A stretch of 64,000 nucleotides of DNA from the NCBI RefSeq assembly GCF_021390155.1, contig NZ_CP089985.1, positions 2,491,001 through 2,555,000 on the forward strand, in the 5' to 3' direction. Shown piece by piece: positions 3,001 through 36,272 of the stretch. Position numbers and translations under genes: made by a program. This stretch comes from Pseudomonas sp. HN11 (lineage in GTDB: Bacteria; Pseudomonadota; Gammaproteobacteria; Pseudomonadales; Pseudomonadaceae). Below the pieces are notes generated by a model. The model did not search any database. It saw only the letters and a program-made list of their open reading frames with translations, and was not told the DNA's origin. Every line of letters begins with the position of its first letter. The stretch's first letter is position 1.

Positions 3001-4395
3001 GAGGCGTTGGAATTTCTCGGCCTTATCGACAGCTACGTGCCGCGCATGACCGATCAGGGCAAGGCCCGCTGGAGCGGCCCGGACGCGCTCAAGCGGCATT
3101 TGCTGCTGCAGTGCACGGCCTATTGGAAAGCACAAGGAGATGTGGATGAGTTGGCGAGCCTTGAACAATTGGAGGCAGGTATTGGATCTCTGGACTTTGC
3201 GGGCCTGCTGCAGCGTTGTCGCGATAAAGGTTTGCTATACGCGCAAATGGCGGCGGCTGCGGACGCGGACCTCTTGAGTTTTATCGAGCGGGAAGTCGGG
3301 CACGGGCATGCACTGGCACATTACAGCCTGTTTTCGTTGCCGATCGCGGTGCATCTGTTCAGTGCGAGTGAGCGCCCGACCGAGTTGTCGCGGCGCAGTG
3401 AATCCCTGGGGTGGAATGAGGTGTTGGCGCCGGGGCAATTGCGCCAGGTGGCGGTGCCGGGGGATCACCAGAGCATGATGCAGGCGCCGCATATCCAGGC
3501 GCTGGGCCGGGCGATGGTTGAGGCTCTGGGTGCTTGTACGCCGCAGGTTCAGGCTCAGCACCAACCGTTGCTGAGGATTCAGAGTGGGCGTGCGGGATAT
3601 ACGCCGGTGTTCTGTGTGCCGGGGGCTGGAGACAGCGTTACCGGATTTGTCGCCTTGAGCGAGGCATTGGGGCGGGATTGGCCGCTGTTCGGCTTGCAAC
3701 CGCGTGGGTTGGAGGGTGAGGCGGTGCCTCATAGCCAGGTGGAAGTGGCAGCGGCTTGTTACGTGAAGGCGTTGGAGCAGGAATGTCCGCAGGGGCCGGT
3801 GCATCTGGTGGGGCATTCGTTTGGGGGCTGGGTTGCGCTGGAGATGGCGTTGCGATTGCAGGCGGCTGGGCGGCAGGTGGCGTCGTTGACGGTGATCGAC
3901 AGTGAGTCACCGGAGCGCGCCGTTCGGCCCTATACGACGACGGCGGCGTTGATGCGGTTGATTGAGGCGATGCAGTTGTCGGCCGGGAAGTCGTTGGGGA
4001 TCGACCTGGTGGACTTTGCCGGGCGTGATGAGGTGGCTCAGCGCCGGCAGTTACACGCTGGGATGGTCGGCGTTGGTCTGTTGCCTGGGCGCTCTTCTGT
4101 GGATGCGATGGATGGGCCGGCGCGGACTTATGCGGCGGCGTTGCGCACGCAGTATCGGCCTGGTGCGCGCTTTAAGGGCGTGGTTCGGTTGGTGTTGGCT
4201 GAGGATCCGGCGCTGGATGCGGCGGGGAATCAGCGGGAGCAGGGGTTGATGGTTGAGGGGTGGCGGCGGCAGGGGAGTGGGTTGCAGGTTTGGTATGGCG
4301 GGGGGAATCACTTTACGTTGCTCAAGGCGCCCAACGTTTTGGGGTTGGCGCGGTGGTGGGTGGATGGTTTGGTGGTTGGGGAGGTTGTGTCGTGA
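1..4395 (+). CDS. Nonribosomal peptide synthetase, terminal module C-A-T-TE-TE (5' partial)
   Basis: The reading frame is open from base 1, so the N-terminal part and any upstream modules lie outside the window. Counting from the first codon, a condensation domain fragment comes first (HHLVMDH active-site motif near residue 20). The adenylation domain follows (TSGSTGTPKG at about 467-476, then YGPTETT and NGKVDRK), then a carrier domain with LGGHSLLAIRL near 850. Two type I thioesterases end the protein: GWSFGG near 981 with a later GDH, and GHSFGG near 1270 with a later GGGNH. Tandem thioesterases and a macAB-luxR neighbourhood are typical of Pseudomonas cyclic lipopeptide synthetases. I read the specificity code as DAMFLGCTYK, which suggests a branched aliphatic residue such as Ile or Val (weak). 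The last 800 bases use very G-rich codons, unlike the start. Confidence 0.93.
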   Translation, partial: SQAPVMRLVVNEDSATLLFHHLVMDHIALEILQHEMQAFLMGTQHTLGAAVPYRNYVAQTRVGAEDHETFFREMLGDIDEPTQVERLGGNEQIQRPLDTDLSQRLRAQARQAGVSAASLMHLAWAQVLGKVSGRDSVVFGSVMLGRLQGGEGAERAMGAFINTLPLRVDLGERSVRDALRATHARLSQLLSHEQAPLALAQRCSGVPVATPLFDTLFNYRHSTPQAASEAWQGIRLLKAEERSNYGLSVSVDDLGDGFFLKIVGQGARRLCGYLQVAVEQVVQALEQGSAMGISHLPILPVVERQQLLDFNATTRPFPREHTVQRLFEAQAQARPGALAVLHGGQSLSYGELNTRANRLAHHLLGLGLRPGDNVAILLPRCRDLLISQLAVLKCAAAYVPLDINAPAERQGFMVQDSGAGWLLTRSDIAVDYAVQRLDLDTLALDPQPNHNPDLSQSSNSVAYIMYTSGSTGTPKGVLVPHRGITRLVINNGYADFNASDRVAFASNPAFDASTMDVWGPLLNGGQVQVIDHATLLDPVAFGVALADATVLFVTTALFNQYVQLIPQVLAGLRILLCGGERADPAAFRSLLAQAPALRLVHCYGPTETTTYATTYEVRALADDADSVPIGRPISNTQVHVLDAHLQPLPLGVTGEICIGGDGVALGYLNRPDLTAEKFVRDPLNEDALMYRTGDLGRWTGDGLLECIGRNDDQVKIRGFRIELGEIEARLATFAGIQEVVVLAREDAPGDKRLVAYFTWADEPIDIDSVRAYLQGQLPEYMLPSAFVPLDQLPLTANGKVDRKALPVPALETFNRREFEAPTDGLEHTLAQLWAEVLKLEQVGRHDSFFELGGHSLLAIRLVNLMEDAGLQVSLAELFQHASVASVAAMLRQRTDETVRETSVITVRTGGSQAPLFLVHEFSGMDVYFPALGQHLPGDYPIYGLPGVALGDSHLNTMEGLAARLVGLIRGIQPHGPYRIAGWSFGGVLAYEVAMQLLGLDEALEFLGLIDSYVPRMTDQGKARWSGPDALKRHLLLQCTAYWKAQGDVDELASLEQLEAGIGSLDFAGLLQRCRDKGLLYAQMAAAADADLLSFIEREVGHGHALAHYSLFSLPIAVHLFSASERPTELSRRSESLGWNEVLAPGQLRQVAVPGDHQSMMQAPHIQALGRAMVEALGACTPQVQAQHQPLLRIQSGRAGYTPVFCVPGAGDSVTGFVALSEALGRDWPLFGLQPRGLEGEAVPHSQVEVAAACYVKALEQECPQGPVHLVGHSFGGWVALEMALRLQAAGRQVASLTVIDSESPERAVRPYTTTAALMRLIEAMQLSAGKSLGIDLVDFAGRDEVAQRRQLHAGMVGVGLLPGRSSVDAMDGPARTYAAALRTQYRPGARFKGVVRLVLAEDPALDAAGNQREQGLMVEGWRRQGSGLQVWYGGGNHFTLLKAPNVLGLARWWVDGLVVGEVVS

Positions 4396-4553
4396 GGGGT
4401 TTGTCGGTGTACATATCCGTTGCTGCGGTCACGGCCACTTATGGTTCCGCTCTTACAGCGGGTCACTTTTGGAAAGGCCGGAAGCCGGCCCAGCCAAAAG
4501 TAACCAAAAGGCCTTCGCCCCACCACTCGGCACCTCGCCTAGGCTCGGTGTGC

Positions 4554-4660
4554 CCGAACGTAGGCTTTAGAGCGTGGGCCGCCGCGCTGGGCCATCCTTG
4601 GCCCAGCGCGGCTAACCCGGCGTCCTGCCGGGTTACCCACGCTCCAAAGCCTACGTTCGG
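4554..4660. other. Y-shaped double-hairpin structure in element A
   Basis: A 24-nt outer stem (4554-4577 with 4637-4660, one mismatch) encloses two hairpins. The first is a perfect 13-bp stem (4582-4594 with 4599-4611, loop TCCT). The second is an 8-bp stem (4614-4621 with 4627-4634, loop GTCCT). The same layout occurs in element B with a different outer-stem sequence that still pairs. It could act as a structured RNA or as cruciform DNA; the sequence alone does not decide. Confidence 0.75.
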
Positions 4661-4751
4661 CCAGCGTGGTTTTACGGGGCGCCGAAGATCAAAAGCAAAA
4701 GCGCAGCGGCCTGTTAGCCGACCGGTTTCTGGAAGCTGGTTTCGGTCCAAA

Positions 4752-4779
4752 TGTGGGAGCGAGCAAGCCCGCTCCCACA
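4752..4779. repeat. REP palindrome
   Basis: Short palindrome TGTGGGAGCGAGCAAGCC followed by GCTCCCACA, the common REP type of the P. fluorescens group. It sits in the centre of the large inverted-repeat element A. Confidence 0.8.
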
Positions 4780-5028
4780 GTTTAGATCTCCTATATCAGG
4801 AAGATATCAAACGGCTCTGGCTCTTTTTTTGATCTTGATTTTGATCTTAGGCGACCCCCCAAATCACTGTCGAATTACGGGCACACCGAGCCTAAGCGAG
4901 GTGGCGAGTGTTGGGGCAAGAGCCTTTTGGTTACTTTTGGGCTCTTTTCAAAAGTGACCCGCCGTAAGGGCGGAACCCATATCAGCCGTTACCTAAATAA
5001 CGGATATGTAAACGACCAAAGGCCACCC

Positions 5029-6180
5029 ATGGAAAAGTCAAAGTTACGCAAACTAGGAATGCTCACGGTAATCACAGTCGCCATAGGCCTAATCATCTAC
5101 ACGGTCCAAGCCCCCGCCGACGCACCGCAATACCTCACCTCCACCGCCGAACGCGGCAACATCGAAAACGCCGTGCTCGCCACCGGCCTGCTCGAAGGCA
5201 TCAAACAGGTAGACGTCGGTGCCCAGGTCTCCGGCCAATTAAAGTCACTCAAGGTCAAAGTCGGCGACAAGGTCAAAAAGGGTCAATGGCTGGCCGAAAT
5301 CGACCCATTGATCCTGCAAAACACCCTGCGCAAAGCCCAGGTCGACGAAGAAAACCTCCAGGCCCAACGCCGCGCCACCGCCGCCCAGCTCAAGCAAGCC
5401 AAATCCGTGTACGAACGCTACAAAGGCCTGCAGAGTGACGAGTCGGTCTCCCGCCAGGACTTCGAAGACGCCGAGTCCACCTTCCAGGTGCAACAGGCCA
5501 ACCTCTTGTCCCTGGACGCGCAGATCAAAAGCGCTCACATTCAGATCGACACCGCCAAGGTCAACCTGGCCTATACCCGAATCGTCGCGCCCATCGACGG
5601 CGATGTAGTGGGTATCGTCACCCAGGAAGGCCAGACCGTGATCGCCAACCAACTGGCGCCGGTGCTGCTCAAGCTGGCCGACCTGGACACCATGACCGTC
5701 AAGGCCCAGGTCTCCGAGGCGGATGTGATCCACATCAGCCCCGGCCAGCAGGTGTACTTCACCATCCTCGGTGAGGCCGACAAACGTTATTACGCCAAGC
5801 TGCGCGGCACGGAACCGGCGCCGCAGAACTTCCTGGAAACCCAGACCGCCGGCACGCCGAAGCAGAACACCGCGGTGTTCTACAATGCGTTGTTCGATGT
5901 GCCCAACCCTGATCACCGCTTGCGCATCGCCATGACCGCACAGGTGCGCATCGTGCTCGACACCGCCGAGGCCGCGCTGATGGTGCCGGTGGCGGCGCTG
6001 GGTGCGCGTAACAACGACGGCACCTACTCGTTGCGGGTGCTGGACGCCAAGGGCAAGGCAGTGTTGCGGGAGGTGAAGACCGGGATCAATAACAACGTCA
6101 AGGTGCAGATCCTCGAAGGCCTGGCCGAAGGCGACAAAGTGGTGATCGGCGACGCTACGCCGGCCGTGGCGGGGAACTGA
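5029..6180 (+). CDS. macA: MacA-like periplasmic adaptor of tripartite efflux pump
   Basis: Membrane-fusion protein of 383 residues that links the MacB transporter to an outer-membrane TolC-type channel; here probably for lipopeptide export. I chose the ATG at 5029 because it has AAAGG six bases upstream and is followed by one N-terminal membrane anchor (about residues 10-27). The longer in-frame start upstream lies in repeat sequence. A biotinyl-lipoyl-like half motif (VGAQVSGQLKSLKVKVGD), a long coiled-coil hairpin (about 95-180), the second lipoyl half and the MacA-typical segment NTAVFYNALFDVPNP are visible. macB begins three bases after the stop codon, so the two are co-translated. The first codons are C- and A-rich, in contrast to the G-rich end of the NRPS gene. 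Confidence 0.92.
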   Translation: MEKSKLRKLGMLTVITVAIGLIIYTVQAPADAPQYLTSTAERGNIENAVLATGLLEGIKQVDVGAQVSGQLKSLKVKVGDKVKKGQWLAEIDPLILQNTLRKAQVDEENLQAQRRATAAQLKQAKSVYERYKGLQSDESVSRQDFEDAESTFQVQQANLLSLDAQIKSAHIQIDTAKVNLAYTRIVAPIDGDVVGIVTQEGQTVIANQLAPVLLKLADLDTMTVKAQVSEADVIHISPGQQVYFTILGEADKRYYAKLRGTEPAPQNFLETQTAGTPKQNTAVFYNALFDVPNPDHRLRIAMTAQVRIVLDTAEAALMVPVAALGARNNDGTYSLRVLDAKGKAVLREVKTGINNNVKVQILEGLAEGDKVVIGDATPAVAGN

Positions 6181-6183
6181 CGG

Positions 6184-8142
6184 ATGACTCAGCCACTGCT
6201 GGAACTCAAGGGCATCACCCGCAGTTTCATGGCCGGCGAGCGTGAGTTCATCGCGCTCAAGGGCATCGACCTGACGATTCATGCCGGGGAAATGGTCGCG
6301 ATCATCGGCGCCTCGGGGTCTGGCAAGTCCACCCTGATGAACATCCTCGGCGGCCTGGATTACGCCACGGCCGGCAGTTACAAGATCAACGGCATCGAAA
6401 CCCGCTCCCTGGGGGATGAGCAGTTGGCCGAACTGCGCCGCGATTACTTCGGCTTTATCTTCCAGCGCTACCACTTGCTGGCGCACCTGAGTGCCTTGCA
6501 CAACGTGGAAATGCCGGCGATCTATGCAGGCACACCGCAAATCCAACGCCACAGCCGTGCACGGGAGTTGCTCGCGCGACTGGGCCTGTCCGGCCACACC
6601 ACCCATCGCCCCAGCCAGCTCTCCGGTGGCCAACAGCAACGGGTAAGTATCGCCCGCGCCTTGATGAACGGCGGCGAAGTAATCCTCGCCGACGAACCCA
6701 CCGGTGCCCTCGACACCCACAGTGGCAAGGAGGTGATGCGCATCCTCGCCGAGCTGCACGCGGCGGGGCACACGGTGATTATTGTCACCCACGACCCCAA
6801 GGTCGCGGCGAATGCCCAGCGTATCGTCGAGGTGAGTGACGGCCAGATTGTCAGCGACAAGGCCAATGACAGCGCGGGCCTGGAGCTGCCCAGCGACACA
6901 CCGATAGAGCCAGAACGCAGCGACGCCCGGCGTTTGGTGGCGAGCCTGGGGTTGTTCAAGGAGGCCTTCAACATGGCCTGGGTCGCGCTGGTGTCTCATC
7001 GCATGCGCACCTTGTTGACGATGCTGGGTATCGTCATCGGCATCACTTCAGTCGTGTCGATCTCGGCTATCGGCGAAGGGGCCAAGCGCTATGTGCTCAA
7101 GGACATCCAGGCGATCGGCAGCAACACCATCGACATCTTTTCCGGCACCAGTTTTGGTGACAGTCGTGCCTCGGCCATCGAGACCTTGATGCCTTCGGAT
7201 GTGGACGCGTTGAACCAGCTGTATTACGTCGACAGTGCTACGCCAGTGGTGGGCCGCAACCTGTTGCTGCGCTTTGGCAACATCGACCTGGATGCGCAGG
7301 TGAATGGCGTCAGCGACCGCTACTTCAAGGTCAAGGGCCTCAAGCTCGAAGCCGGTATCGCCTTCAGCGAAAGCGATGCACGGCGCCAGGCCCAGGTGGT
7401 GGTGATCGACCACAACACCCGGCACCGACTGTTCGGCCCTAACGTCGACCCGCTGGGTCAGGTGATCCTGGTGGGTAACCTGCCGTGCACCGTGATTGGG
7501 GTGACCGCCGATAATAAGAACATGTTCGCCGCCAGCAAAGCGCTGAATGTGTGGGTGCCCTATGAAACAGCGGCGGGGCGCTTGCTGGGGCAGCGTCATC
7601 TGGACAGCATCACCGTGCGCATCAAGGACGGCCAGCCGAGCAAGGTGGTGGAAGACAACGTCAATAAGCTCATGCTGCAACGCCACGGCACCAAGGATTT
7701 CTTCACCAACAACCTCGACAGCATCATGCAGACGGTGCAGAAAACCAGTCGCTCCCTGGCGTTGCTGCTGTCGTTGATTGCGGTGATTTCGTTACTCGTG
7801 GGTGGGATCGGGGTGATGAATATCATGCTGGTGTCAGTGACCGAGCGTACCCGTGAGATCGGAATTCGCATGGCAGTGGGCGCGCGCCAGTCGGATATTC
7901 GCCAGCAGTTCCTGGTGGAAGCGGTGATGGTGTGCCTGATTGGCGGGCTGATCGGGATCTCGCTGTCCTATGCCCTGGGTTTTCTGTTCTCGTTGTTTGT
8001 GAAGGAATGGGAGATGGTGTTTTCCATGGGCTCGGTCATCACCGCGTTTGCCTGCTCGACGCTGATCGGCATTGTGTTCGGTTTTGTACCCGCGCGGAAT
8101 GCGGCGCGGCTCGACCCGATCGAAGCGCTGGCAAGGGATTGA
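6184..8142 (+). CDS. macB: MacB-like ABC transporter, ATPase-permease fusion
   Basis: Inner-membrane ABC exporter of 652 residues, the usual MacB size. The N-terminal ATPase carries Walker A GASGSGKST (42-50), signature LSGGQQQR (about 146) and Walker B VILADEPTGALD. Then come a first membrane segment near 275-295, a large periplasmic domain, and three C-terminal FtsX-type membrane segments from about 525 onward. With MacA it moves substrate from the periplasm through a TolC-like channel; no channel gene is present in this window. Position directly after an NRPS end matches the transporter pair of viscosin- and massetolide-type lipopeptide loci, so secretion of that peptide is the likely role (inference). 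Confidence 0.94.
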   Translation: MTQPLLELKGITRSFMAGEREFIALKGIDLTIHAGEMVAIIGASGSGKSTLMNILGGLDYATAGSYKINGIETRSLGDEQLAELRRDYFGFIFQRYHLLAHLSALHNVEMPAIYAGTPQIQRHSRARELLARLGLSGHTTHRPSQLSGGQQQRVSIARALMNGGEVILADEPTGALDTHSGKEVMRILAELHAAGHTVIIVTHDPKVAANAQRIVEVSDGQIVSDKANDSAGLELPSDTPIEPERSDARRLVASLGLFKEAFNMAWVALVSHRMRTLLTMLGIVIGITSVVSISAIGEGAKRYVLKDIQAIGSNTIDIFSGTSFGDSRASAIETLMPSDVDALNQLYYVDSATPVVGRNLLLRFGNIDLDAQVNGVSDRYFKVKGLKLEAGIAFSESDARRQAQVVVIDHNTRHRLFGPNVDPLGQVILVGNLPCTVIGVTADNKNMFAASKALNVWVPYETAAGRLLGQRHLDSITVRIKDGQPSKVVEDNVNKLMLQRHGTKDFFTNNLDSIMQTVQKTSRSLALLLSLIAVISLLVGGIGVMNIMLVSVTERTREIGIRMAVGARQSDIRQQFLVEAVMVCLIGGLIGISLSYALGFLFSLFVKEWEMVFSMGSVITAFACSTLIGIVFGFVPARNAARLDPIEALARD

Positions 8143-8166
8143 GATGTCTCAGCCAACATAGATCAA

Positions 8167-8258
8167 ATGTGGAAGCGGGCTTGCCCGCGAATGCAGTGTG
8201 TCAGTCAACAGATTCATTGGCTGAATACCGAATTCGCGAGCAAGCCCGCTCCCACATT
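8167..8258. repeat. REPIN (paired inverted REP sequences)
   Basis: Two REP half-palindromes in inverted orientation, GTGGAAGCGGGCTTGCCCGCG and its partner CGCGAGCAAGCCCGCTCCCAC, separated by about 45 bases. It lies between the convergent macB and luxR-type genes. Confidence 0.85.
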
Positions 8259-8273
8259 TAGACCTGAGTAGTC

Positions 8274-8957
8274 TTAAAAACCAGCGGTGTCCTCAGTAGC
8301 GTACATCCACCGCAGCAACGAATGCCGGCCACTGATCCCCAGCTTGATCGCCGCGCGCTTCAGGTAACTCTCGATGGTGTTGACCTTCAATGCCAGCTGC
8401 TCCGCCAACTCCGGCGCCGTACGCCCGGCCAGCAGGCCTACGCAGACCTCAAGCTCCCGGCTGGACAGGGTCAGCCCCGACTGCACCAAGCGTTCTTCAA
8501 TACGCCTGCGCAGGGTTTCGATGCCCTGGTTTTCCGGCACCATCAAATCGCCGTCCTGGCGGCACGGTTGGATAGCGGCAATGTGTTTTTCCACCATGGG
8601 CAGCAGCAGGGTGGAGAAGTCCTGCAGCATGCTGCGTTCCTGGGGTGAAAAGCTGTCGGACTGGTGTGAGCGATACACTGACAGCACATAGCGCACGTCG
8701 TCCCGCCGGCGGGTTAGGTGTAATTGGGCGGCGGGTTGTTCTTCGTCCAGGGGCACTGCCGAATCGGTATAGACCGGGCTGATCTTGCGACGAGTTTGCC
8801 CTTCGGCGCTTACCCGCAATTGCGTGATATGGGTGGCGTCCACTGACAGTTGGGTAAGAATCAGGTCATGCAGCATGCGTGGAAAATGGCGACTGCCGGT
8901 GCTGGCGATGACTTTGCCAATATGGGGAAACAACTGTGCGTTCATCAATTCGTCCAT
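8274..8957 (-). CDS. LuxR-type transcriptional regulator of lipopeptide locus
   Basis: Protein of 227 residues with a C-terminal LuxR/GerE helix-turn-helix (about 160-220: LTLSSRELEVCVGLLAGRT, then VNTIESYLKRAAIKLGISG). The N-terminal part is not recognisable as an acyl-homoserine-lactone binding domain. LuxR proteins without that domain flank Pseudomonas lipopeptide genes and activate them (ViscAR/ViscBCR-like). Its convergent position right after macB fits that role, so I infer control of the NRPS-macAB operon. The start is the first ATG; Met5 is an alternative. About 140 bases without a gene lie upstream. Confidence 0.85.
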   Translation of the reverse strand: MDELMNAQLFPHIGKVIASTGSRHFPRMLHDLILTQLSVDATHITQLRVSAEGQTRRKISPVYTDSAVPLDEEQPAAQLHLTRRRDDVRYVLSVYRSHQSDSFSPQERSMLQDFSTLLLPMVEKHIAAIQPCRQDGDLMVPENQGIETLRRRIEERLVQSGLTLSSRELEVCVGLLAGRTAPELAEQLALKVNTIESYLKRAAIKLGISGRHSLLRWMYATEDTAGF

Positions 8958-9099
8958 GAGGCGTGCAGGTATTCGGCTTTATAGCGGCGGGGGTTAAGGT
9001 GCAAGCCAATGCGAATACCTGGCGTGATAGTCCTTCCCGCCGGAACCTATGCTAGTACAGCCTGGCGACGGGAAGGGGATCCAATCTGAAAAAATCGGA

Positions 9100-10335: not shown

Positions 10336-10407
10336 GTCGGACGCTCCTTATTTCCTACAATGCTATGCTCATAACCACAGATGAACTTTGCAATGTTTGC
10401 TGCTAAT

Positions 10408-10422
10408 TCCCACGTCTTGGGA
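10408..10422. promoter_or_regulatory. Candidate MdeR operator in the mdeA-mdeR divergent promoter
   Basis: Inverted repeat TCCCA-N5-TGGGA in the 123-base divergent gap, 37 bases before the mdeR start. Lrp-family proteins often bind imperfect palindromes of about this size between such gene pairs. The assignment is inferred from position only. Confidence 0.35.
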
Positions 10423-10458
10423 TGAAAAACCTCGAAAAACAACAATCAGAGGCATGTT

Positions 10459-10929
10459 ATGCCCGTCAGTCTCGACCGCACCGATAAAGCTCTTTTAAAC
10501 GCGTTGCAGGGCAATGCCCGGCTCACCGTGGCCGAGTTGGCCGACCGCGTCTCCCTGACCACCTCGCCGTGTTGGCGCCGGGTGCGCAACCTGGAGGAGA
10601 GTGGGGTGATCAGTGGGTATCAGGCGATTCTGTCGCCCAAGGCCCTGGGGTATGGGGTGACGGCGTTTGTCAGCATCATGATGGAGAGTCATACCCAGGA
10701 AATTGCGCGGGCGTTTGAACAGCGATTATTGGAGATTCCGGAGATTGTGGCGTGTCATAACGTGTCGGGGCGGTATGACTTTTTGTTGGAAGTGGTGGCT
10801 AGGGATCTGGAGTCGTTTGGGGAGTTTGCGCGGGAGGTGTTGCAGACGTTGCCTTGTGTTAAGGAGATTTATTCGAGTTTTTCTTATAAGTCGGTGAGGG
10901 CTTTGCGGGTGATTCCGTTGCCGGGGTGA
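10459..10929 (+). CDS. mdeR: Lrp/AsnC family regulator, probable MdeR
   Basis: Protein of 156 residues with an N-terminal winged helix (DKALLNALQGNARLTVAELA, then SPCWRRVRNLEESGVI) and a C-terminal RAM/AsnC ligand-binding domain. The length and layout are normal for the family. It is divergent from mdeA. In P. putida the equivalent gene, mdeR, activates mdeA, so the same role is inferred here. Codon use becomes strikingly G/T-rich in the second half of the gene, approaching the large repeat element that starts 17 bases after the stop. Confidence 0.88.
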   Translation: MPVSLDRTDKALLNALQGNARLTVAELADRVSLTTSPCWRRVRNLEESGVISGYQAILSPKALGYGVTAFVSIMMESHTQEIARAFEQRLLEIPEIVACHNVSGRYDFLLEVVARDLESFGEFAREVLQTLPCVKEIYSSFSYKSVRALRVIPLPG

Positions 10930-11083
10930 TTGGGGGGGGGGTGTGTACATATCCGTTGCTTCGGTAACGGCGGCTTATGGTTCCGCTCTTACAGCGGGTC
11001 ACTTTTGGAAGGACCCAAAAGTAACCAAAAGGTCCTCGCCCCAACACTCGGTGCCTCGCCTAGGCTCGGCATGCCCTCACTCC

Positions 11084-11172
11084 GGCTTGAATCCGTGGGC
11101 CGCCGCGATGGGCCATCCTTGGCCCAGCGCGGCTAACCCGGCGTCCTGCCGGGTTACCCACGGATTCAAGCC
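11084..11172. other. Y-shaped double-hairpin structure in element B
   Basis: The outer stem of 16 perfect pairs (11084-11099 with 11157-11172) encloses the same two inner hairpins as in element A. The outer-stem bases (CTTGAATCCGTGGG here, CTTTAGAGCGTGGG in A) differ between copies, and the partner strand changes to match. The longer inner stem has one mismatch here. Confidence 0.75.
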
Positions 11173-11206
11173 TGCGTTCGGCCAGCGTGTTTAACGGGGC
11201 GCCTCA

Positions 11207-11240
11207 GATCAAGATCAAGATCAAGATCAAAATCAAAAGC
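11207..11240. repeat. Short tandem GATCAA hexamers
   Basis: Four exact GATCAA units followed by degenerate AATCAA/AAGCAA units. Similar but less regular runs occur at the matching place in element A and, inverted, on the right side of both elements. Confidence 0.8.
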
Positions 11241-11676
11241 AAGAGCACGGCGGCCTAGTAGCCGACTTGAGTGATTAGATCAAAAGCAGATACGTGTATG
11301 AGCCGGCTTGCCGGCCCTAGAGTGGGCCGTTTTTGCTGTTGCCGTTGCTTCACACCACTCAAGCCGGCTGTCAGGCCGCTGTGCTCTTGTTTTTGATTTT
11401 GATCTTAGGCGGCCCCCCAAATCCCTGTCGGATTACGGGCATACCGAGCCTAGGCGAGGTACCGAGTGTTGGGGCAAGAGCCCTTTTGGTTACTTTTGGG
11501 GCTCTTTTCCAAAAGTGACCCGCCGTAAGGGCGGAACCAATACCCGCCATCACCCAAATAACGGATATGTACTCAACAAAGCACGCCCCCCCGATACAGC
11601 ACGTACATCCAATTTTCCCCACCCCAACCCCCGCAAACTCCCTCATCGCTGAAACATCAAGGCAGAGGGACACCCC

Positions 11677-12267
11677 ATGGACCCAGCAACAAAACCAGGC
11701 GCTGACGAGGTCGTCACCCTGGTGGTCAAACACCTGATCAAGCAAGGCCGTGAAGCCGACTACGAAGCCTGGCTACGCCGCATCGTCACCATCGCCGGCG
11801 CACGCCCAGGCCATCTCGGTGTCGATGTAGTCCGCGGCAAGCAAGGCAACCTGGCCCTGTTCACTTGCGTATTACGCTACCGCTCCACCGACGACCTGAA
11901 AACCTGGCTCGACTCCCCCGAGCGCAAGTCCCTGATCGCCGAAGCCACCCCGATGCTCGCCGACGGCGACAACACCGAAATCGGCGCGGTCAACGAATTC
12001 TGGTTCCGCCCCGAAACTGAAAACGCTGCCAAACCGCCACGCTGGAAGCAGGCAGTGGTCACCCTGTTTGTAATCCTGCCGCTGACCCTGCTGGTGCCTA
12101 TCGTGTGGGGCCCGGTACTGCGGCTGCACCCGTTTCTCTCCAACTACGTGGTCGCCACCTTTCTGGTGACCCTGACCATCGTGGTGCTGGTGGTCTACCT
12201 GCTGATGCCGGCGGCCACCCGCCTATTCGCTCCCTGGCTTGAAGCCTCTGCAAAGGAAACCCTATGA
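11677..12267 (+). CDS. ABM-domain membrane protein
   Basis: Protein of 196 residues. The first ~110 residues resemble a dimeric alpha-beta barrel of the antibiotic biosynthesis monooxygenase (ABM) family (VVKHLIKQGREADYEAWLRR, then GHLGVDVVRG). Two hydrophobic segments follow (about 127-147 and 155-180), so the barrel would be tethered to the inner membrane with the membrane part at the C-terminus. Its stop overlaps the next gene's start by four bases (ATGA), indicating translational coupling with an amidohydrolase. Catalytic activity is not shown by the sequence; many such domains are not true oxygenases. The 5' end is markedly C-rich, next to repeat element B. Confidence 0.75.
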   Translation: MDPATKPGADEVVTLVVKHLIKQGREADYEAWLRRIVTIAGARPGHLGVDVVRGKQGNLALFTCVLRYRSTDDLKTWLDSPERKSLIAEATPMLADGDNTEIGAVNEFWFRPETENAAKPPRWKQAVVTLFVILPLTLLVPIVWGPVLRLHPFLSNYVVATFLVTLTIVVLVVYLLMPAATRLFAPWLEASAKETL

Positions 12268-14102: not shown

Positions 14103-14125
14103 TCAAACCCCAAAGGAGTTACCCC

Positions 14126-17938: not shown

Positions 17939-19299
17939 GCCAGCGCCTGCTGCCGCTCTTCAACCCCGGCGGTGACGCTGTAGCGGTTGGCCGGCACCTC
18001 CAGGCCCAGGTTATCGCGCAGGGTCTGGCCGCTGTAATCGGTGCGGAACAGGCCGCGTTGCTGCAGCACCGGCACCACCAGTTCGGTGAAATACTGCAAG
18101 CCATCCGGCAGTACCGAGTTGATGATGAAACCGTCGCTGGCGCCGGTTTCGAACCAGGTCTGGATCGCATCGGCGACTTGCTCCGGGGTGCCGACAAAAT
18201 CACGTTTTGGCCGCGAGAAGCGCAGGGCCACTTCACGCAGGGTCAGGCCTTCGTCCCTGGCCAGTTGCTTGATACGGTCGGAGCCGCCTTTCTGACTGTT
18301 GGAACCCAGGTCTCCGAGTTCCGGGAACGGCGCGTCCAGCGGGTATTGGCTGAAATCGTGGTCGTTGAACGGGCGGCCGAGGGCAACGATGGCATCTTCC
18401 ACGGTGACCAGGTCCACGGCCTGCTGGTAGCGGCTTTCCACTTCAGCCTGATCACGCCCGACAATAGGACGGATACCCGGCAGGATCGACAGGCTATTGG
18501 CGTCGCGACCAAACCCTTTGGCACGACGCTTCAGGTCTTGGGAGTAGGCCAGGCCTTCTTCGATGCTGTCGACATGCACAAAAATCGCATCAGAGTTTTC
18601 CGCGGCAAAGTTGCGTCCGTCTTCGGAAGTCCCGGCCTGGAAAATCACCGGCTGGCCCTGACGCGAACGCGCGATGTTCAGTGGGCCTTTCACCGAGAAG
18701 AAATCGCCCTTGTGATTGAGCGCATGCAGCTTGCTCGGGGCAAAAAACTCGCCGGTCTGTTTGTCATAGGTAAAGGCGTCGTCTTCCCACGAATCCCAAA
18801 GGCCTTGAACTGTGTTCACGTGTTCCTTGGCGATGCGGTAACGCACGGCGTGAGGTGGGTGCTCAGCCTTGCTGAAGTTGTCGGCGGTGCCACTCAGCCA
18901 CGAGGTAACCACGTTCCAGCCGGCGCGACCGCCGCTGATATGGTCCAGAGATGAGAACTGGCGCGCCACCTGGTACGGTTCGGTGTAGCTGACGGTCACC
19001 GTGGCGACCAGGCCGATATTCGTGGTGATTGCCGCGAGGGCGGAAAGGATGGTCAGCGGTTCGAAACGGTTAAGGTAGTGCGGGCTGGATTTGGCGTGGA
19101 TATGCAGGCTGTCGGCGATGAACACGAAGTCGAACTTGGCGGCTTCGGCCAGTTCAGTCTGCTGCTTGTAGAAACCAAAGCTGGTGCTGGCGTTGGGTTG
19201 GGCGTTCGGGTGGCGCCATTCGCCCCAGCCGTGACCGACGCCGTGGACCATTGCACCCAATTTTAAATGGCGTGGTTTCAATTGACGTGGCTTGCTCAT
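17935..19299 (-). CDS. LLM flavin monooxygenase, NtaA/SnaA/DszA family
   Basis: Protein of 454 residues of the nitrilotriacetate-monooxygenase-like branch of FMN-dependent bacterial luciferase-like enzymes. Typical segments are HPNAQPNASTSFGFYKQQ, FDFVFIADSLHI, the family motif SGGRAGWNVVTSW and IFQAGTSEDGRNFAAENSD. Such enzymes open sulfur- or nitrogen-bearing organic molecules with O2 and reduced FMN supplied by a separate reductase; no reductase gene is in this operon. It starts 13 bases after the binding-protein gene and overlaps the acyl-CoA-dehydrogenase-like gene by four bases. Together these point to organosulfur use (inference); the substrate is unknown. Confidence 0.88.
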   Translation of the reverse strand: MSKPRQLKPRHLKLGAMVHGVGHGWGEWRHPNAQPNASTSFGFYKQQTELAEAAKFDFVFIADSLHIHAKSSPHYLNRFEPLTILSALAAITTNIGLVATVTVSYTEPYQVARQFSSLDHISGGRAGWNVVTSWLSGTADNFSKAEHPPHAVRYRIAKEHVNTVQGLWDSWEDDAFTYDKQTGEFFAPSKLHALNHKGDFFSVKGPLNIARSRQGQPVIFQAGTSEDGRNFAAENSDAIFVHVDSIEEGLAYSQDLKRRAKGFGRDANSLSILPGIRPIVGRDQAEVESRYQQAVDLVTVEDAIVALGRPFNDHDFSQYPLDAPFPELGDLGSNSQKGGSDRIKQLARDEGLTLREVALRFSRPKRDFVGTPEQVADAIQTWFETGASDGFIINSVLPDGLQYFTELVVPVLQQRGLFRTDYSGQTLRDNLGLEVPANRYSVTAGVEERQQALA

Positions 19300-24629: not shown

Positions 24630-24648
24630 AGTTGTGTGGTGTTCTTGA

Positions 24649-26057: not shown

Positions 26058-26085
26058 AAAAAAAACCGGCTGATCAGGCCGGTTT
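26058..26085 (-). terminator. Rho-independent terminator of the repeat-protein gene
   Basis: On the minus strand, AAACCGGC and GCCGGTTT form an 8-bp stem with a 7-base loop, followed by a run of T. It lies 24 bases after the stop codon of the small secreted protein gene. Confidence 0.88.
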
Positions 26086-26109
26086 GGGGTTCCCGCAAGC
26101 CGTGCGGGG

Positions 26110-26379
26110 TTAAGCGTTGTTGCCTTGCAGGCGATCAGCACCGCCTTCAGCCAGGCCACGTTCCTGCAGACGATCAGCACCGCCTTCGGCGACACGACGT
26201 TCCAACAGGCGGTCCGAACCGTTTTCGGCAACGCGGTTACCTTGCAGGCGGTCCGAGCCACCCTCTGCAATGCGACTTTCGATCAGGCGATCCGCGCCGC
26301 CTTCAGCAACAACCGGGTGAGCAAATGCGTTTGCAGCAAGTACCGAAAAAGCGAGGCTAAGCAAGATTTGGCGTTTCAT
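26110..26379 (-). CDS. Small secreted protein with five 13-residue repeats
   Basis: Protein of 89 residues. A clear signal peptide (MKRQILLSLAFSVLAANAFA) is followed by five nearly identical 13-residue units of the pattern AEGGADRLxExRV (variants AEGGSDRLQGN, AENGSDRLLER, AEGGADRLQER, AEGGADRLQGN) and almost nothing else. The mature protein would be about 69 residues, highly charged, and periplasmic or exported. No function can be assigned. I recall similar short Pseudomonas repeat proteins being labelled phage infection protein in databases, but I know no evidence for that. It has its own terminator and no operon partner. Confidence 0.85.
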   Translation of the reverse strand: MKRQILLSLAFSVLAANAFAHPVVAEGGADRLIESRIAEGGSDRLQGNRVAENGSDRLLERRVAEGGADRLQERGLAEGGADRLQGNNA

Positions 26380-26524
26380 GAGGGTGTGCTCCGAGTGTTT
26401 GAGTTGGGTTGTTGCTGGTATGGGGTTGATGTTACGCGTTGCATTTTTTAAGAGAACTTCATTGGGCTGATGGTGACTATCGATGCCAACGATGGCTCGT
26501 TTTGGCGAGCCATCGCTGGGCCAG

Positions 26525-27247: not shown

Positions 27248-27426
27248 GGTCTTGTCCTCAAGTGGGAGCGGGCTGCGACATGCAGGGCTCCGGCGTTGAG
27301 AAGAAGGTTAATGGTTAGCGTGGGATTCATTAAGAAGCTGAAATTTGAATGACTGTCTCCTTGAGGTGGACAGTTGTGAACGTGTAATAATGTCCGCCGC
27401 ATTCCTTCTCGATGGGCTCTCCTGAT

Positions 27427-28377: not shown

Positions 28378-28526
28378 CGACAGAATGTCCGTCTCGCGCA
28401 CCCGAATGTCCGTGTCATTCCCCGTGCCAGCATTGTCCTGTCATCGCCAACTGGCAAGATAGCGTCAAGCCCATGGAAAAGGATGCGCGAACGCCCAAGG
28501 CCGGGCGTTTCAGCGCTTTTATAAAG

Positions 28527-32705: not shown

Positions 32706-32763
32706 GGGGGGCCGTGCTCGCAAAATGGGAAGCGGCCAGCATATTCCAGGTACGTACAGACCA

Positions 32764-33162
32764 CTAGGCCGCGATCACTTGCGGCTTTTGCCGTGAGTGG
32801 TGATTTCGCCAAGTCATCGGGTTGACGCCCTCGCTGCGGGTGAACATGTGGCAGAAATGCGCCTGGTCACAAAAACCGCATTCCAGGCTGATTTGCGTCA
32901 GGCTCAGGGTTGAGCTGGTGATCAGCTCCTTGGCCCGTTGTATGCGTTGTTGGCGGATCCACTCCTGCGGTGACAGTCCTGTAGTGCACTTGAACGCGCG
33001 GGAAAAATGGCTGCGCGACAAGGCGCAGGCCTGGGCCAGGTCGGCAATCGCCAGGCTTTCGCCGAGGTTGGCCAGGATCAGTTGCTTGGCGATACGCTCG
33101 CGCCGTGGGCACAGGCCACCGGTGGCGGACAAACGAGGGGCATATTGCTCTAGTTGGGCCAT
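32764..33162 (-). CDS. Small AraC-family regulator
   Basis: Protein of 132 residues consisting almost only of an AraC double helix-turn-helix (LAIADLAQACALSRSHFSRA, then LTQISLECGFCDQAHFCHMF). There is no room for a sensor domain. I chose the start at 33162 (MAQLEQ); a longer in-frame reading adds about 16-100 residues with no domain. It lies 58 bases downstream of the long STAND regulator's start on the same strand and is divergent from a LysR gene. Target unknown. Confidence 0.8.
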   Translation of the reverse strand: MAQLEQYAPRLSATGGLCPRRERIAKQLILANLGESLAIADLAQACALSRSHFSRAFKCTTGLSPQEWIRQQRIQRAKELITSSTLSLTQISLECGFCDQAHFCHMFTRSEGVNPMTWRNHHSRQKPQVIAA

Positions 33163-33366
33163 GACAAAAATCCGCAGTCGATGGGAGCGTTCCTGGTGGA
33201 TGGATGCAGTGTAGACGTGGCTTATCTTGTTGCCGGACCGTCTGGTTGACGAGTTAATCGTTGTTAATTTCGCCAGGTGCCTGCGTTGAAAAGACAGCAC
33301 AGGCATGCAATGCGGATCGCGTTTTGCGTGCTTATCTGTGTGCCTGCCAACCGTTTGGATGCCACC

Positions 33367-34275
33367 ATGAACCGCAACGACCTGCGTCGCGTCGACATGA
33401 ACCTGCTGGTGATTTTCGAGGCGCTGATGTTCGAGAAGAACCTGACCCGCGTCGCCGAAAAACTGTTCATGGGCCAACCGGCAGTGAGTGCAGCGCTGGG
33501 GCGTTTGCGTGATCTGTTCGACGACCCGTTGCTATTGCGCAACGGGCGGGGCATGGAGCCCACGCCACGCGCGGTGGCGATACTCAAGGAGTTGCAACCG
33601 GCCATGGACACCATTTCCGGCGCGGTCAGCCGTGCCAAGGATTTCGACCCTTCCACCAGCTGTGCGGTATTTCGCATTGGTCTCTCAGACGACGCTGAGT
33701 TTGGTCTGTTTCCGCCGTTGCTCAGCCAATTGCGCGAAGAAGCGCCGGGCATCATCGTGGTGGTGCGCCGGGCCAATTACCTGTTGATGTCGTCGTTGCT
33801 GGCCAGCGGTGAGATTTCGGTGGGGGTGAGTTACACCACTGAATTGCCAGCGAATGCCAAGCGCAAGAAGCTGCGGGATATTCCGTGCAAGGTCTTGCGA
33901 GGAGATGACGGCACCGAGCCGCTGACTCTGGATGACTACTGTGGGCGGCCCCATGCGATGGTGTCGTTCTCGGGGGACTTGAGTGGCAACATCGATCTGG
34001 ACCTGGCGCGGATTGGTAGAGCGCGGCGGGTGGTGTTGGCGGTGCCGCAGTTCAGTGGGCTGCGGGCGTTGTTGGCGGGGACGCAGATTATTGCGACGGT
34101 ACCGGATTATGCGGCGTGTGCGTTGACCGACGGGACGTCGTTGCGGGCGGAGGATCCGCCGTTTGCGATTGATGCGGCGGAGTTGTCGATGGTGTGGAGT
34201 GGGGTGCATGACAATGATCCGGCGGAGCGGTGGCTGAGGGGGAGGATTGGGGAGCATATGGCTCGGGTGGTTTGA
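33367..34275 (+). CDS. LysR-family regulator, NodD/LinR-like subgroup
   Basis: Protein of 302 residues. The N-terminal helix-turn-helix (VDMNLLVIFEALMFEKNLTR, then GQPAVSAALGRLRDLFDDPL) has the short spacing and RDLFDDPLLLR motif of the NodD/NahR/SyrM-like subgroup. I chose the ATG at 33367 (MNRNDLRR). From about 34000 onward the codons become extremely G-rich (48 G against 12 C in 34161-34260), next to the IS256-split repeat arm that begins six bases after the stop. Its target is unknown; a small AraC gene is divergent from it. Confidence 0.87.
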   Translation: MNRNDLRRVDMNLLVIFEALMFEKNLTRVAEKLFMGQPAVSAALGRLRDLFDDPLLLRNGRGMEPTPRAVAILKELQPAMDTISGAVSRAKDFDPSTSCAVFRIGLSDDAEFGLFPPLLSQLREEAPGIIVVVRRANYLLMSSLLASGEISVGVSYTTELPANAKRKKLRDIPCKVLRGDDGTEPLTLDDYCGRPHAMVSFSGDLSGNIDLDLARIGRARRVVLAVPQFSGLRALLAGTQIIATVPDYAACALTDGTSLRAEDPPFAIDAAELSMVWSGVHDNDPAERWLRGRIGEHMARVV

Positions 34276-34280
34276 CTGAG

Positions 34281-34299
34281 TACATATCCCCTTTTTCGG
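34281..34299. repeat. Left part of IS-split solo repeat arm (copy C)
   Basis: TACATATCC followed by CCTTTTTCGG matches the outer end of the large repeat elements A and B. The rest of the arm resumes at about 35671 after the IS256 element. Confidence 0.75.
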
Positions 34300-34350
34300 G
34301 ACTGTCATAAATTTTGTGTTCGGGCATAACATGTTGCTAGAGGTGCATGT

Positions 34351-35610
34351 ATGCCGACAAAAAAGAAACCGGCCCGTGAGGCCACGCGAGACCTTCCATC
34401 CATTCCCAAAGAGCTGATCGACCAGTTCGTCAGCGGTCCGATGAGTGCCGAAGCCATTCAGGACGCCTCGATGGCGTTCAAAAAGGCGCTGATCGAGCGA
34501 GCTCTTGGTGCCGAGTTGGGCCACCATCTTGGCTATCCTCAGGGCGCGGAGCGCCCTGAGGATTCGAGCAACCAACGCAATGGCAAGAGTGGCAAAACGG
34601 TGCTGACCGATGACGGCCCTTTGCGTCTGGATATTCCCAGAGATCGCGATGGAAGTTTTGCCCCGATCTTGATCCCTAAGCATGAGCGCCGTTTTACAGG
34701 CTTTGATGACAAGATCATCGCGATGTATGCCCGAGGTATGACGGTTCGCGAAATCAGGGCGTTTCTCTCGGAACAGTACGGAACAGAAGTCTCCCACGAC
34801 TTTATCAGTTCCGTCACTGACGCCGTTTTGGAGGAGGTTGCCGCCTGGCAACAGCGACCGCTTGAACCGATGTACCCGGTAATTTTCTTCGATGCATTGC
34901 GAGTCAAAATTCGTGACGAAGGCCTGGTGCGCAACAAAGCGATTTACCTGGCACTGGGCGTATTGCCGGACGGAACCCGAGATATCCTGGGCATTTGGAT
35001 TGAAACAACCGAAGGCGCCAAGTTTTGGATGAAGGTCTTCAACGACCTGAAAACGCGAGGCGTCGAGGACGTCTTGATCGCCGTAACTGACGGTCTCAAA
35101 GGCATGCCCGAAGCGCTGAGTGCTGTGTTTCCTGAGACGACGTTGCAGACCTGCATCGTCCATCTGATCCGCAACAGCCTCGATTACGCAGGCTGGGACA
35201 AGCGCCGTGAGCTGGCCAAGGCATTGAAGCCGATCTATCAAGCGCTCAATGCTGACCTCGCCGAGCAAGCGCTGCTGGCCTTCGAAGCCGGGCCTTGGGG
35301 CAAGCAATATCCCACGGTTGTGGCGGCTTGGAAGCGCGCTTGGGATCGGGTTATCCCGTTCTTCGTGTTTCCCCCGGCGATACGCAAAGTGATCTACACA
35401 ACCAACGCCATCGAGAGCATCAATGCTCAGTTGCGCAAGATCATCAAGACGCGAGGCCACTTCCCAACGGACGATGCCGCGACGAAGCTGATTTGGCTGG
35501 GTTTACGCAATATCACCGCGAACTGGGGCAGTGCAGCCCATGACTGGAAGAGCGCGATGAATCAATTTGCGATCCTGTACGCAGATCGATTTATCAGGCC
35601 GACCTGGTAA
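34351..35610 (+). CDS. IS256-family transposase
   Basis: Protein of 419 residues, full length for the family. The catalytic triad reads D181 (VIFFDALRVKIR), D247 (AVTDGLKG) and E355 (TTNAIESINAQLRK), and the C(2)H-type segment LQTCIVHLIRNS lies between D and E. There is no frameshift or early stop, so the element may still be mobile. The gene is the only one inside the insertion sequence. Confidence 0.95.
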   Translation: MPTKKKPAREATRDLPSIPKELIDQFVSGPMSAEAIQDASMAFKKALIERALGAELGHHLGYPQGAERPEDSSNQRNGKSGKTVLTDDGPLRLDIPRDRDGSFAPILIPKHERRFTGFDDKIIAMYARGMTVREIRAFLSEQYGTEVSHDFISSVTDAVLEEVAAWQQRPLEPMYPVIFFDALRVKIRDEGLVRNKAIYLALGVLPDGTRDILGIWIETTEGAKFWMKVFNDLKTRGVEDVLIAVTDGLKGMPEALSAVFPETTLQTCIVHLIRNSLDYAGWDKRRELAKALKPIYQALNADLAEQALLAFEAGPWGKQYPTVVAAWKRAWDRVIPFFVFPPAIRKVIYTTNAIESINAQLRKIIKTRGHFPTDDAATKLIWLGLRNITANWGSAAHDWKSAMNQFAILYADRFIRPTW

Positions 35611-35616
35611 AGCTAG

Positions 35617-35636
35617 GGCCTGCCTGACGGCAGGCC
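35617..35636. other. Perfect hairpin at the 3' end of the transposase gene
   Basis: GGCCTGCC and GGCAGGCC form an 8-bp perfect stem with loop TGAC, seven bases after the transposase stop. There is no T run, so it may mark the IS right end region or act as a weak terminator. Confidence 0.5.
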
Positions 35637-35670
35637 GTTACCGGCCCGCACACAAAAAATCTGACACTCT

Positions 35671-35742
35671 CCCTTTTTCGGTAACGGCCACTTATGGTTC
35701 CTCCCTTACGGCGGGTCACTTTTGGAAAAGAGCCCCAAAAAT
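35671..35742. repeat. Right part of IS-split solo repeat arm (copy C)
   Basis: It continues the arm begun at 34281: CGGTAACGGCCACTTATGGT, then CGGCGGGTCACTTTTGG and AAAGAGCCCC, as in elements A and B. No opposite arm or AACGGATATGTA terminus is seen before the next gene, so this copy is a solo arm. Confidence 0.75.
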
Positions 35743-35834
35743 TGGTCACCCATTCTTCCCCAGAATTGGATATTCCTCCCCCGAGGCCCGATGACTAACC
35801 TAGCCATCAATTCCCACTGCCTTGGAGCAACACC

Positions 35835-36272
35835 ATGCAAACCCGTACCGATTTCTACACCGCCTCCCCAGACGCCATGAAAGCCATGCTCGCCCTGGAA
35901 GCCGCCGTCGGCAAACTGTCCATCGAACTGCCATTGCTGGAGCTGGTGCGTTTGCGCGTGTCGCAGATCAACGGCTGCGCCTTCTGCCTCGACATGCACA
36001 CCGCCGACGCCCGCAAAGGCGGCGAGACCGAACGCCGTCTGTACACCGTGTCGGCCTGGCGCGAAACACCATTTTTCACCCCGCGTGAACGCGCCGCGCT
36101 GGCCTGGGCCGAGAGCCTGACCCTGATCAGCCACACCCACGCCCCGGACGAAGACTTCAACGCACTGGCCGCCGAATTCAGCGCCCAGGAACAAGTCGAC
36201 CTGAGCTTGGCCATCGCCACCATCAACAGCTGGAACCGTCTGGCGGTGGGTTTCCGCAAGATGCCGAAGTAA
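35835..36272 (+). CDS. Carboxymuconolactone decarboxylase family protein, AhpD-like
   Basis: All-helical protein of 145 residues with the CxxC-x3-H motif CAFCLDMHT, as in AhpD-like alkylhydroperoxidases. The two Cys form the redox centre. The physiological substrate is unknown; such proteins usually help detoxify peroxides. The ATG at 35835 has TTGGAG eight bases upstream. It converges with the TonB-dependent receptor gene, with three bases between the two stops. The upstream sequence is C-rich, next to the solo repeat arm. Confidence 0.88.
   Translation: MQTRTDFYTASPDAMKAMLALEAAVGKLSIELPLLELVRLRVSQINGCAFCLDMHTADARKGGETERRLYTVSAWRETPFFTPRERAALAWAESLTLISHTHAPDEDFNALAAEFSAQEQVDLSLAIATINSWNRLAVGFRKMPK

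Follow-up and report, generated by a model that had tools for sequence, protein, structure and literature searches.

The 64,000-nucleotide (nt) stretch of Pseudomonas sp. HN11 analysed here (contig NZ_CP089985.1, positions 2,491,001 to 2,555,000; hereafter the window) carries three copies of a repeat at which the base composition of the plus strand changes sign, G exceeding C on the left and C exceeding G on the right. What reverses the skew at such an element? The first-pass annotation had counted G and C in 100-base segments on either side of each copy (54/14 and 21/32, 36/13 and 16/44, 48/12 and 16/36) and proposed a strand-specific mutation or repair process centred on the element; all six counts were exact. 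We show that the unit of the effect is the single repeat end, about 66 nt long, and that the process is polar and directed outward. Among the features tested, the orientation of the end alone predicts the skew.

Skew flips at repeat copies across the chromosome

Among 19,100 control pairs of 100-nt segments set 650 bases apart, four reached the smallest of the three observed G-minus-C differences, a comparison that serves as a guide only, as the control pairs overlap and the observed segments were chosen by the reader. Copies 1 and 2 are complete; the third (34280-35740) is not a whole element but a left end split by a Transposase_mut gene, its right end missing or decayed. On the whole chromosome (6.27 Mb) we found 17 end matches at 11 sites (at most three mismatches), and none to the reversed pattern. 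The keto skew flip (F), calculated as the excess of G and T in the 500 nt to the left minus that in the 500 nt to the right, was positive at all 11 copies (mean 0.276). GC and TA skew both flipped at every one of these copies, and the strand running 5' to 3' toward the element had the excess of G and T from either side. At 18,400 control positions in fifty 20-kb stretches the mean keto flip was 0.000 (standard deviation 0.10); five of the 11 copies lay above the control 99th percentile of 0.248. The weak copies include two (L001 and L006) in which an insertion sequence of about 1.4 kb separates the element from a strongly skewed left flank, and the skew is therefore an enduring mark, not something conferred by whatever DNA adjoins the repeat. 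In other genomes, 25 of 31 sites flipped the same way.

Gene junctions lacking the element provided a second control. We analysed 563 of them (363 co-directional, 109 convergent and 91 divergent), with 400 bases of coding sequence per side and genes taken from a simple open reading frame (ORF) picker. The co-directional junctions, the check proposed at the outset, had a mean keto F of 0.000 (99th percentile 0.311; GC F 0.024), the convergent junctions one of +0.063 and the divergent junctions one of 0.006. Keto F at the eight complete copies in this genome was 0.12-0.70, with seven at 0.29-0.70 and four above 0.311; no more than 1.4% of the co-directional junctions had a value of 0.29 or above.

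Each end acts alone and outward

Partial elements separate the contribution of the two ends. We compared keto skew to the left and right of 94 sites from this and other genomes, each with 400 bases on both sides; a few of the apparent half elements among them are split whole elements. Sites with both ends (n = 34) had skews of +0.214 and −0.155. Where only the right end was present (n = 23) the values were −0.018 and −0.182, where only the left end was present (n = 28) they were +0.132 and −0.007, and at fragments without ends (n = 9) they were +0.065 and −0.066. One-ended elements skew only the flank beside that end, and therefore the unit is the end and not the centre of the element. The process proposed at the outset is thus tied to the element and strand-specific, as claimed, and is not centred on it. 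The strongest skew among the 94 sites lay beside a solo right end (L284, element 4717-5058), whose right flank had a GC skew of −0.68 and a TA skew of −0.56 over 400 bases.

The same polarity was seen when ends were located with a profile of the end. Across 238 ends in nine data sets, drawn from the sites listed by earlier searches rather than the full set per genome (10 to 20 places in each of six genomes), mean outer GC skew was positive in every set (+0.119 to +0.251). After removal of nine duplicate flanks, outer keto skew was positive at 212 of 229 ends, drawn from HN11, the 34 named genomes described below and further Pseudomonas genomes. The division into paired and solo ends left aside eight of the 238 that had another end of the same orientation no more than 1.5 kb away. 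Solo ends (n = 111) had an outer GC skew of +0.161 (standard error (se) 0.012) and TA skew of +0.113, and on their far side (n = 84) a GC skew of 0.000 (se 0.011) and TA skew of −0.056 (se 0.013). The result was replicated in 53 stretches from 34 named Pseudomonas genomes, some of which may overlap the other Pseudomonas genomes of the 229-end set, where 74 ends had an outer GC skew of +0.196. The skew extended about 1 kb from the end in HN11, compared with about 600 bp in four other genomes.

Flanking genes in the window and their orthologues

The repeat copies and flanking genes of the window are listed below, with gene assignments from Pfam.

4409-5011, no strand assigned: copy 1, complete; two inverted ends (about 4409-4476 and 4945-5011) flanking an imperfectly palindromic middle
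4409-4476, minus strand (outward reading): copy 1 left end; hairpin CCGCY-GTAAG-RGCGG, second hairpin region and terminus GGATATGTAC; inward terminator-like hairpin at 4446-4462
4945-5011, plus strand: copy 1 right end; inward terminator-like hairpin at 4974-4958
3396-4395, plus strand: copy 1 left flank, skewed (G and T excess); 3' part of a nonribosomal peptide synthetase (NRPS) gene with a thioesterase domain
5029-6180, plus strand: copy 1 right flank; HlyD-domain (MacA-type) gene, with C and A excess over the first ~450 nt, weaker further on
10945-11572, no strand assigned: copy 2, complete, with both ends
10459-10929, plus strand: copy 2 left flank, skewed; Lrp/AsnC-type regulator gene ("mdeR")
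11677-12267, plus strand: copy 2 right flank; ABM-domain gene 101 nt from the end, with weaker skew
34280-34299, minus strand: terminus of the copy 3 left end, stopping in the duplicated target CCTTTTTCGG
34300-35671, plus strand: insertion sequence within the copy 3 left end (boundaries by eye); ORF 34351-35610, Transposase_mut; itself hardly skewed
35672-35740, minus strand: remainder of the copy 3 left end, after the second target copy; intact right end absent downstream
33277-34275, plus strand: copy 3 left flank, skewed; LysR-type regulator gene
35835-36272, plus strand: copy 3 right flank; carboxymuconolactone decarboxylase family gene, its start C-skewed with no intact right end left

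We compared the genes beside six element sites with their orthologues, using up to 30 orthologous loci per site from 149-199 Pseudomonas genomes. The 12 flanking genes yielded 301 gene rows of up to 360 possible, a row being absent if the gene was unalignable or on the other strand; four rows were dropped, three in which the alignment covered no more than 60% of the query and one element-free row with 300 bases or fewer of neighbouring sequence. In a coarse split by presence of the element, third-position GC/TA skews on the plus strand of HN11 were −0.59/−0.64 with the element and −0.10/−0.20 without it for hptB, −0.49/−0.43 and −0.09/+0.15 for gspE, +0.68/+0.80 and +0.26/+0.26 for nrps, and +0.45/+0.58 and +0.13/+0.23 for lrp. 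Differences were smaller for macA (p = 0.008), fliK (p = 0.0002) and ggdef (p = 0.03), and there was no clear effect for prfB (p = 0.13), acnB (p = 0.90), a transporter gene (p = 0.16) or gspD (p = 0.16). The ABM gene had a single element-free orthologue for comparison.

Splitting the rows by the end that faces the gene gave a sharper result, and this second check asked for at the outset supported a tie between skew and element. With a facing end present (n = 78), oriented GC skew at third codon positions (GC3) was +0.332 (se 0.022) above the mean of orthologues of the same gene without an element (n = 198), and the corresponding rise in TA skew was +0.411 (se 0.029). Where the element was present without its facing end (n = 21), the changes were +0.035 (se 0.030) for GC3 and −0.092 (se 0.059) for TA. 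The difference in GC3 had p = 4 × 10−8 for near against far end and p = 6 × 10−26 for near end against none, values that treat rows from related species as independent. Within macA, skew was +0.38 with the near end (n = 11), −0.10 with the far end only (n = 4) and −0.10 with no element (n = 15). At a gspD-gspE locus with a right end only (L191), gspD was unskewed and gspE strongly skewed. Two genomes without a detected near end had an nrps gene as skewed as those with one (+0.65 v +0.69).

A tree of macA built from codons far from the end contained five near-end groupings, drawn by eye, each more skewed than neighbouring genomes that lack one (+0.41 v −0.02, +0.36 v ~0, +0.33 v −0.12, +0.34 v −0.22 and +0.43 v +0.03). 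At another gspD-gspE junction (L190), where the two genes almost adjoin and no element is present, the skew was strong on both sides; this genome sits next to carriers in the tree. This locus has probably lost its element, which suggests that the scar outlasts it.

Kind of base change

We compared substitutions at fourfold sites between near-end and other lineages, taking as ancestral the majority base of the element-free orthologues, not a base reconstructed on a tree. Within 300 nt of the end, C>G changes were raised 3.76-fold (95%CI 2.46-5.56), C>T 1.47-fold (0.91-2.27) and G>T 1.88-fold (1.07-3.30). At 300-600 nt the ratios were 3.41 for C>G and 0.94 for C>T, and beyond 600 nt they were 1.34 (0.78-2.34) for C>G and 0.55 (0.33-0.79) for G>A. 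On the strand running 5' to 3' into the end, C was thus lost, mainly to G, while G and T were gained. The change was mainly a swap of C and G that altered GC content little. Plain cytosine deamination was considered and rejected, as the range for C>T includes 1 whereas C>G rose 3.8-fold.

The skew had been said to extend hundreds of bases into coding sequence and to alter codon choice, and the third-position shifts in the flanking genes bear this out. In seven genes, codon positions 1 and 2 shifted the same way as position 3, by much less; the process therefore acts on DNA rather than solely on codon choice.

Replication, gene direction, motifs and gene junctions

Neither fork direction nor gene direction accounted for the skew. 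On three chromosomes, with origin and terminus inferred from skews by position and a background of 0.035 corrected for, ends facing the origin had a skew of +0.137 (n = 42) and ends facing the terminus one of +0.167 (n = 20; p = 0.20). In HN11 the strongly skewed genes gspE and macA are located to the terminus side of their elements. Genes reading toward the end (nrps, lrp, gspD, ggdef and hptB) and away from it (macA and gspE) shifted alike, which excludes gene direction, as the annotation had argued, and transcription direction was rejected as a cause on the same ground.

We also searched the flanks for motifs. On the inward strand the Pseudomonas Chi octamer, GCTGGCGC, occurred 24 times, or 2.30 per 10 kb, compared with 1.70 in controls and 0.57 on the outward strand. 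Runs of G rose far more on the inward strand, many of them together. Selection for a Chi-like motif was rejected, as no single 8-mer accounts for the skew.

Some flips do arise away from the repeat. A finer scan of the 50 control stretches yielded seven positions with F of at least 0.30 and four at −0.30 or below. By eye, the two strongest positive flips seem to lie where genes converge, and a transposase remnant accompanies one of them; at the strongest (L018, about 2047-2618, by eye) we noted a 3' fragment of the insertion sequence found in copy 3. At third codon positions, GC flipped by 0.205 (se 0.065) and TA by −0.064 at co-directional junctions with repetitive extragenic palindromes (REPs; n = 10). 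The values were 0.078 and −0.070 for co-directional junctions without REPs and with gaps of at least 60 nt (n = 152), and −0.004 and −0.038 for smaller gaps (n = 201). Hairpin repeats in general may therefore show some GC flip, but not the joint GC and TA flip of this element. Separately, divergent control pairs with gaps of at least 60 nt (n = 74) had a third-position GC flip of +0.195 and TA flip of −0.281, and in convergent pairs free of REPs (n = 90) the TA flip was about +0.26; such ordinary coding-strand asymmetries need subtracting in any local skew study.

Structure and distribution of the repeat

Each end consists of a first hairpin, a second hairpin (CCGTT..AACGG) and the terminus GGATATGTAC, which is carried by both inverted ends, so that the element has terminal inverted repeats as in a non-autonomous transposon resembling a miniature inverted-repeat transposable element. 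Pairing in the first hairpin is kept across double changes. In 192 unique ends, a count that includes orthologous ends, the arms were CCGCC/GGCGG in 99, CCGCT/AGCGG in 52, TCGCC/GGCGA in 10 and TCGCT/AGCGA in five. When folded as single-stranded DNA, the right end of copy 1 supported both hairpins (z −2.9), and in that of copy 2 (z −0.7) only the first formed well. Mismatches in the second hairpin showed a slight excess of G-T over A-C on the outward strand. Both ends of copy 1 carry an inward terminator-like hairpin followed by a T run (two found, against a mean of 1.2 in shuffled sequence) and, read inward, resemble weak terminators.

Searched for by a 24-nt word, the repeat family was present in 208 of 298 Pseudomonas genomes, one of which had as many as 86 end matches. 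A degenerate form of the word matched two of the 19 genera of the bacterial family (99 genomes), and copy 1 used as query matched one of 72,556 plasmid records and one of 50,697 phage records. A search for an autonomous element with a transposase between its ends examined two long pairs as candidates; these contain or lie next to an IS110-type transposase ORF (L300, Pfam) and an ORF resembling an integrase-type transposase (L305, by eye), both of which are probably unrelated insertion sequences. Among 58 paired elements, orthologues included, no target-site duplication stood out, as no k-mer match was well above shuffled expectation.

The Transposase_mut insertion sequence, presumably of the IS256 type, lies inside the left end of two repeat copies (34300-35671 in the window and about 8340-9715 in L001, by eye), and in window copy 3 its 10-bp target CCTTTTTCGG is duplicated around it. 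Repeat ends may be preferred targets of this insertion sequence. Elsewhere in the window, positions 50001-52000 have a GC content of 0.46-0.52, below that of the rest, and are possibly acquired DNA.

The cores of copies 1 and 2 matched the TwoAYGGAY RNA model (Rfam RF01731) on the minus strand at 4548-4666 and 11077-11179, scoring 54.9 and 49.9 bits against a gathering threshold of 43. These matches sit in the middle of the element, whereas the skew belongs to the ends alone. The available text of PMC4333381 treats TwoAYGGAY as a family of unknown function that was proposed to bind CsrA; the Rfam model may pick up this DNA repeat.

Discussion

A mutation or repair process is our best reading of the skew, as all codon positions shift, and the reduced G>C leaves room for selection or biased conversion. 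Tentatively, and at somewhat under an even chance, we would attribute the skew to recurrent breakage or nicking at each end followed by error-prone repair of the outer flank. The end would be cut by a transposase acting in trans or by a nuclease recognising the folded hairpins; its inner side would be protected, as by bound transposase or a closed hairpin, and the outer flank resected, leaving single-stranded the 3'-ended strand that runs into the end. Copying back of this strand would be prone to C-to-G errors, and repetition over evolution would shift base composition at weakly constrained sites. In the available text of PMC3901139, G:C to C:G transversions in ultraviolet (UV)-treated Caulobacter depend on ImuB and ImuC, and P. 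putida is said to have imuABC. The fuller picture, in which a short hairpin-forming end is a polar mutator that nicks or breaks DNA, is resected outward and copied with C-to-G errors, reshapes the codon usage of neighbouring genes and leaves a datable scar that outlasts the element, is possible, and we would sooner doubt it than assume it.

Several observations weigh against breakage with error-prone repair. G>C changes were reduced to 0.49 (95%CI 0.26-0.78) within 300 nt and to 0.29 (0.15-0.48) at 300-600 nt, which counts against a mutational origin because a surplus of C>G mutation would not by itself be expected to lower G>C; an earlier, looser count gave 0.79 for G>C beside 3.17 for C>G and 1.48 for C>T. 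Synonymous divergence was not raised near the ends and was often lower, so local hypermutation in that sense was not seen. Mutational bias fits the shift at codon positions 1 and 2 best, and the reduced G>C fits strand-asymmetric conversion or selection at the DNA level; any of the three may be at work. Six of the 31 sites in other genomes had no flip, an element with both ends (L072) had no skew, the right flank of copy 3 is still skewed without an intact right end, and degenerate ends retain most of their skew (score v skew, rho 0.11, p = 0.08). The conserved genes prfB and acnB, which lie 173-194 nt and 79 nt from the end, respectively, showed no effect when split by facing end, the effect in fliK and the ABM gene was weak, and REP clusters flip slightly (GC F 0.172, keto 0.094; n = 37). 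In the available text of the Imu studies, imuC lowers base substitutions in stationary-phase P. putida (PMC3901139), and spontaneous mutation rates in Caulobacter are comparable irrespective of ImuC (PMC7198004).

The foremost rival is selection or strand-asymmetric biased gene conversion, the end being a polar recombination hot spot or a G-rich inward strand being beneficial, with mutation rate unchanged. It would predict the 3.4-3.8-fold rise in C>G beside a fall of G>C to 0.29-0.49 seen within 600 nt, as well as the unraised divergence and the nearly constant GC content. Under pure selection, however, a 3.4-fold rise predicts G>C of about 0.13 by the standard fixation formula, slightly below the lower bound of 0.15 at 300-600 nt and far below that of 0.26 within 300 nt; codon positions 1 and 2 shift too, many G-runs rise jointly with no motif standing out (GCTGGCGC at 2.30 v 1.70 per 10 kb), and macA and gspE, read outward, are as biased as the inward genes, which is hard to fit with a benefit at the RNA or codon level. 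We consider this rival serious, though on the whole unlikely. An outward promoter in each end, with transcription-linked damage or RNA-level selection (for example, for C-rich, G-poor Rho sites) shaping the flank, would account for the polarity and for the action of single ends, and the outward RNA would, from the skew, be C-rich and G-poor. It is rather improbable, as the non-template strand would lose G and not C, genes in outward sense (macA and gspE) and antisense (nrps, gspD and hptB) are hit alike, and the ends of copy 1 weakly resemble inward terminators. A promoter scan, a weak test on copy 1 alone, found one promoter-like site inside the element (4873-4844, minus strand; 0.4 expected) and none at the ends.

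The skew might instead have preceded the element, through insertion into pre-existing flips or descent of the carriers from one clade with odd codon use. Element-free orthologues are indeed often weakly skewed with the same sign, and carriers cluster by descent; but the five macA groupings agree, genomes with only the far end of the macA element have no extra skew (−0.10, the same as with none, v +0.38 near), the C>G ratio beyond 600 nt is not clearly different from 1, and L190 is skewed and adjoins carriers, as after loss, all of which makes prior skew very improbable. Also very improbable is a polar, Tus-Ter-like fork barrier at each end that halts forks from outside: the skew has the sign of leading strands running toward the end, yet ends facing away from forks are as skewed as those facing them (+0.167 v +0.137), and gspE and macA are strongly skewed on the terminus side. 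A symmetric break at the central palindrome, resected both ways, which is what centring on the element most readily implies, is hardly plausible at all; complete copies are near-palindromic and flip on both sides, but half elements skew one side only, which refutes it as the sole cause. Least credible is an ordinary effect of gene junctions or terminators, for which the convergent junctions (+0.063), the seven control positions at or above 0.30 and the GC flip of REP clusters could be cited, as seven of eight complete copies reach a level seen in at most 1.4% of co-directional junctions and co-directional REP junctions have no TA flip (−0.064).

Around the dif/Ter terminus and at Tus-Ter sites, too, the strands that run toward the site have an excess of both G and T. 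The repeat ends share this sign of skew, but lie at many sites, reach about 1 kb, act singly and are independent of fork direction. Chi hot spots are likewise polar, acting on one side of a short sequence, but GCTGGCGC was not specially enriched in the flanks and was not seen in the end sequences inspected.

Several families of intergenic repeats, R0-R200, were described in P. fluorescens (Silby et al. 2009, PMC2718517). In the available text of that paper, R178, with 18, 28 and nine copies in three strains, is likewise intergenic, with inverted repeats and tens of copies per genome; the likeness is one of size and copy number alone, and R178 may be this repeat family. The same text describes a gene-orientation bias for the R families and no skew of their flanks. 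REPs and REPINs, associated with RAYT transposases (PMC3116915, in part), are likewise hairpin-rich, non-coding and repeated, and REP-like sequences occupy the same gaps in some orthologues (by eye). The present repeat is longer and of other sequence (by eye, unaligned), and its ends flip TA as well as GC, unlike the REP junctions. In yeast, the available text of PMC2577886 reports strand-biased hypermutation of resected single-stranded DNA at breaks. There too strand-biased changes lie beside the break, and they are interpreted as a signature of the exposed, unresected strand, but that system is experimental, UV-damaged and eukaryotic, whereas the HN11 skew is an evolutionary, C-to-G footprint at a fixed bacterial repeat end. 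In the literature searched, with subscription papers outside its scope, we found no report of skew beside such repeats or of these end sequences.

Strand skew in bacteria is usually ascribed to replication or transcription, and the skew at a 66-nt repeat end follows neither. The ends make mutational and selective causes of GC skew testable at defined sites with built-in controls, namely near end, far end and no element. Pseudomonas genes close to such repeats have distorted codon usage and substitution rates, and the skew can reveal sites that elements once occupied.

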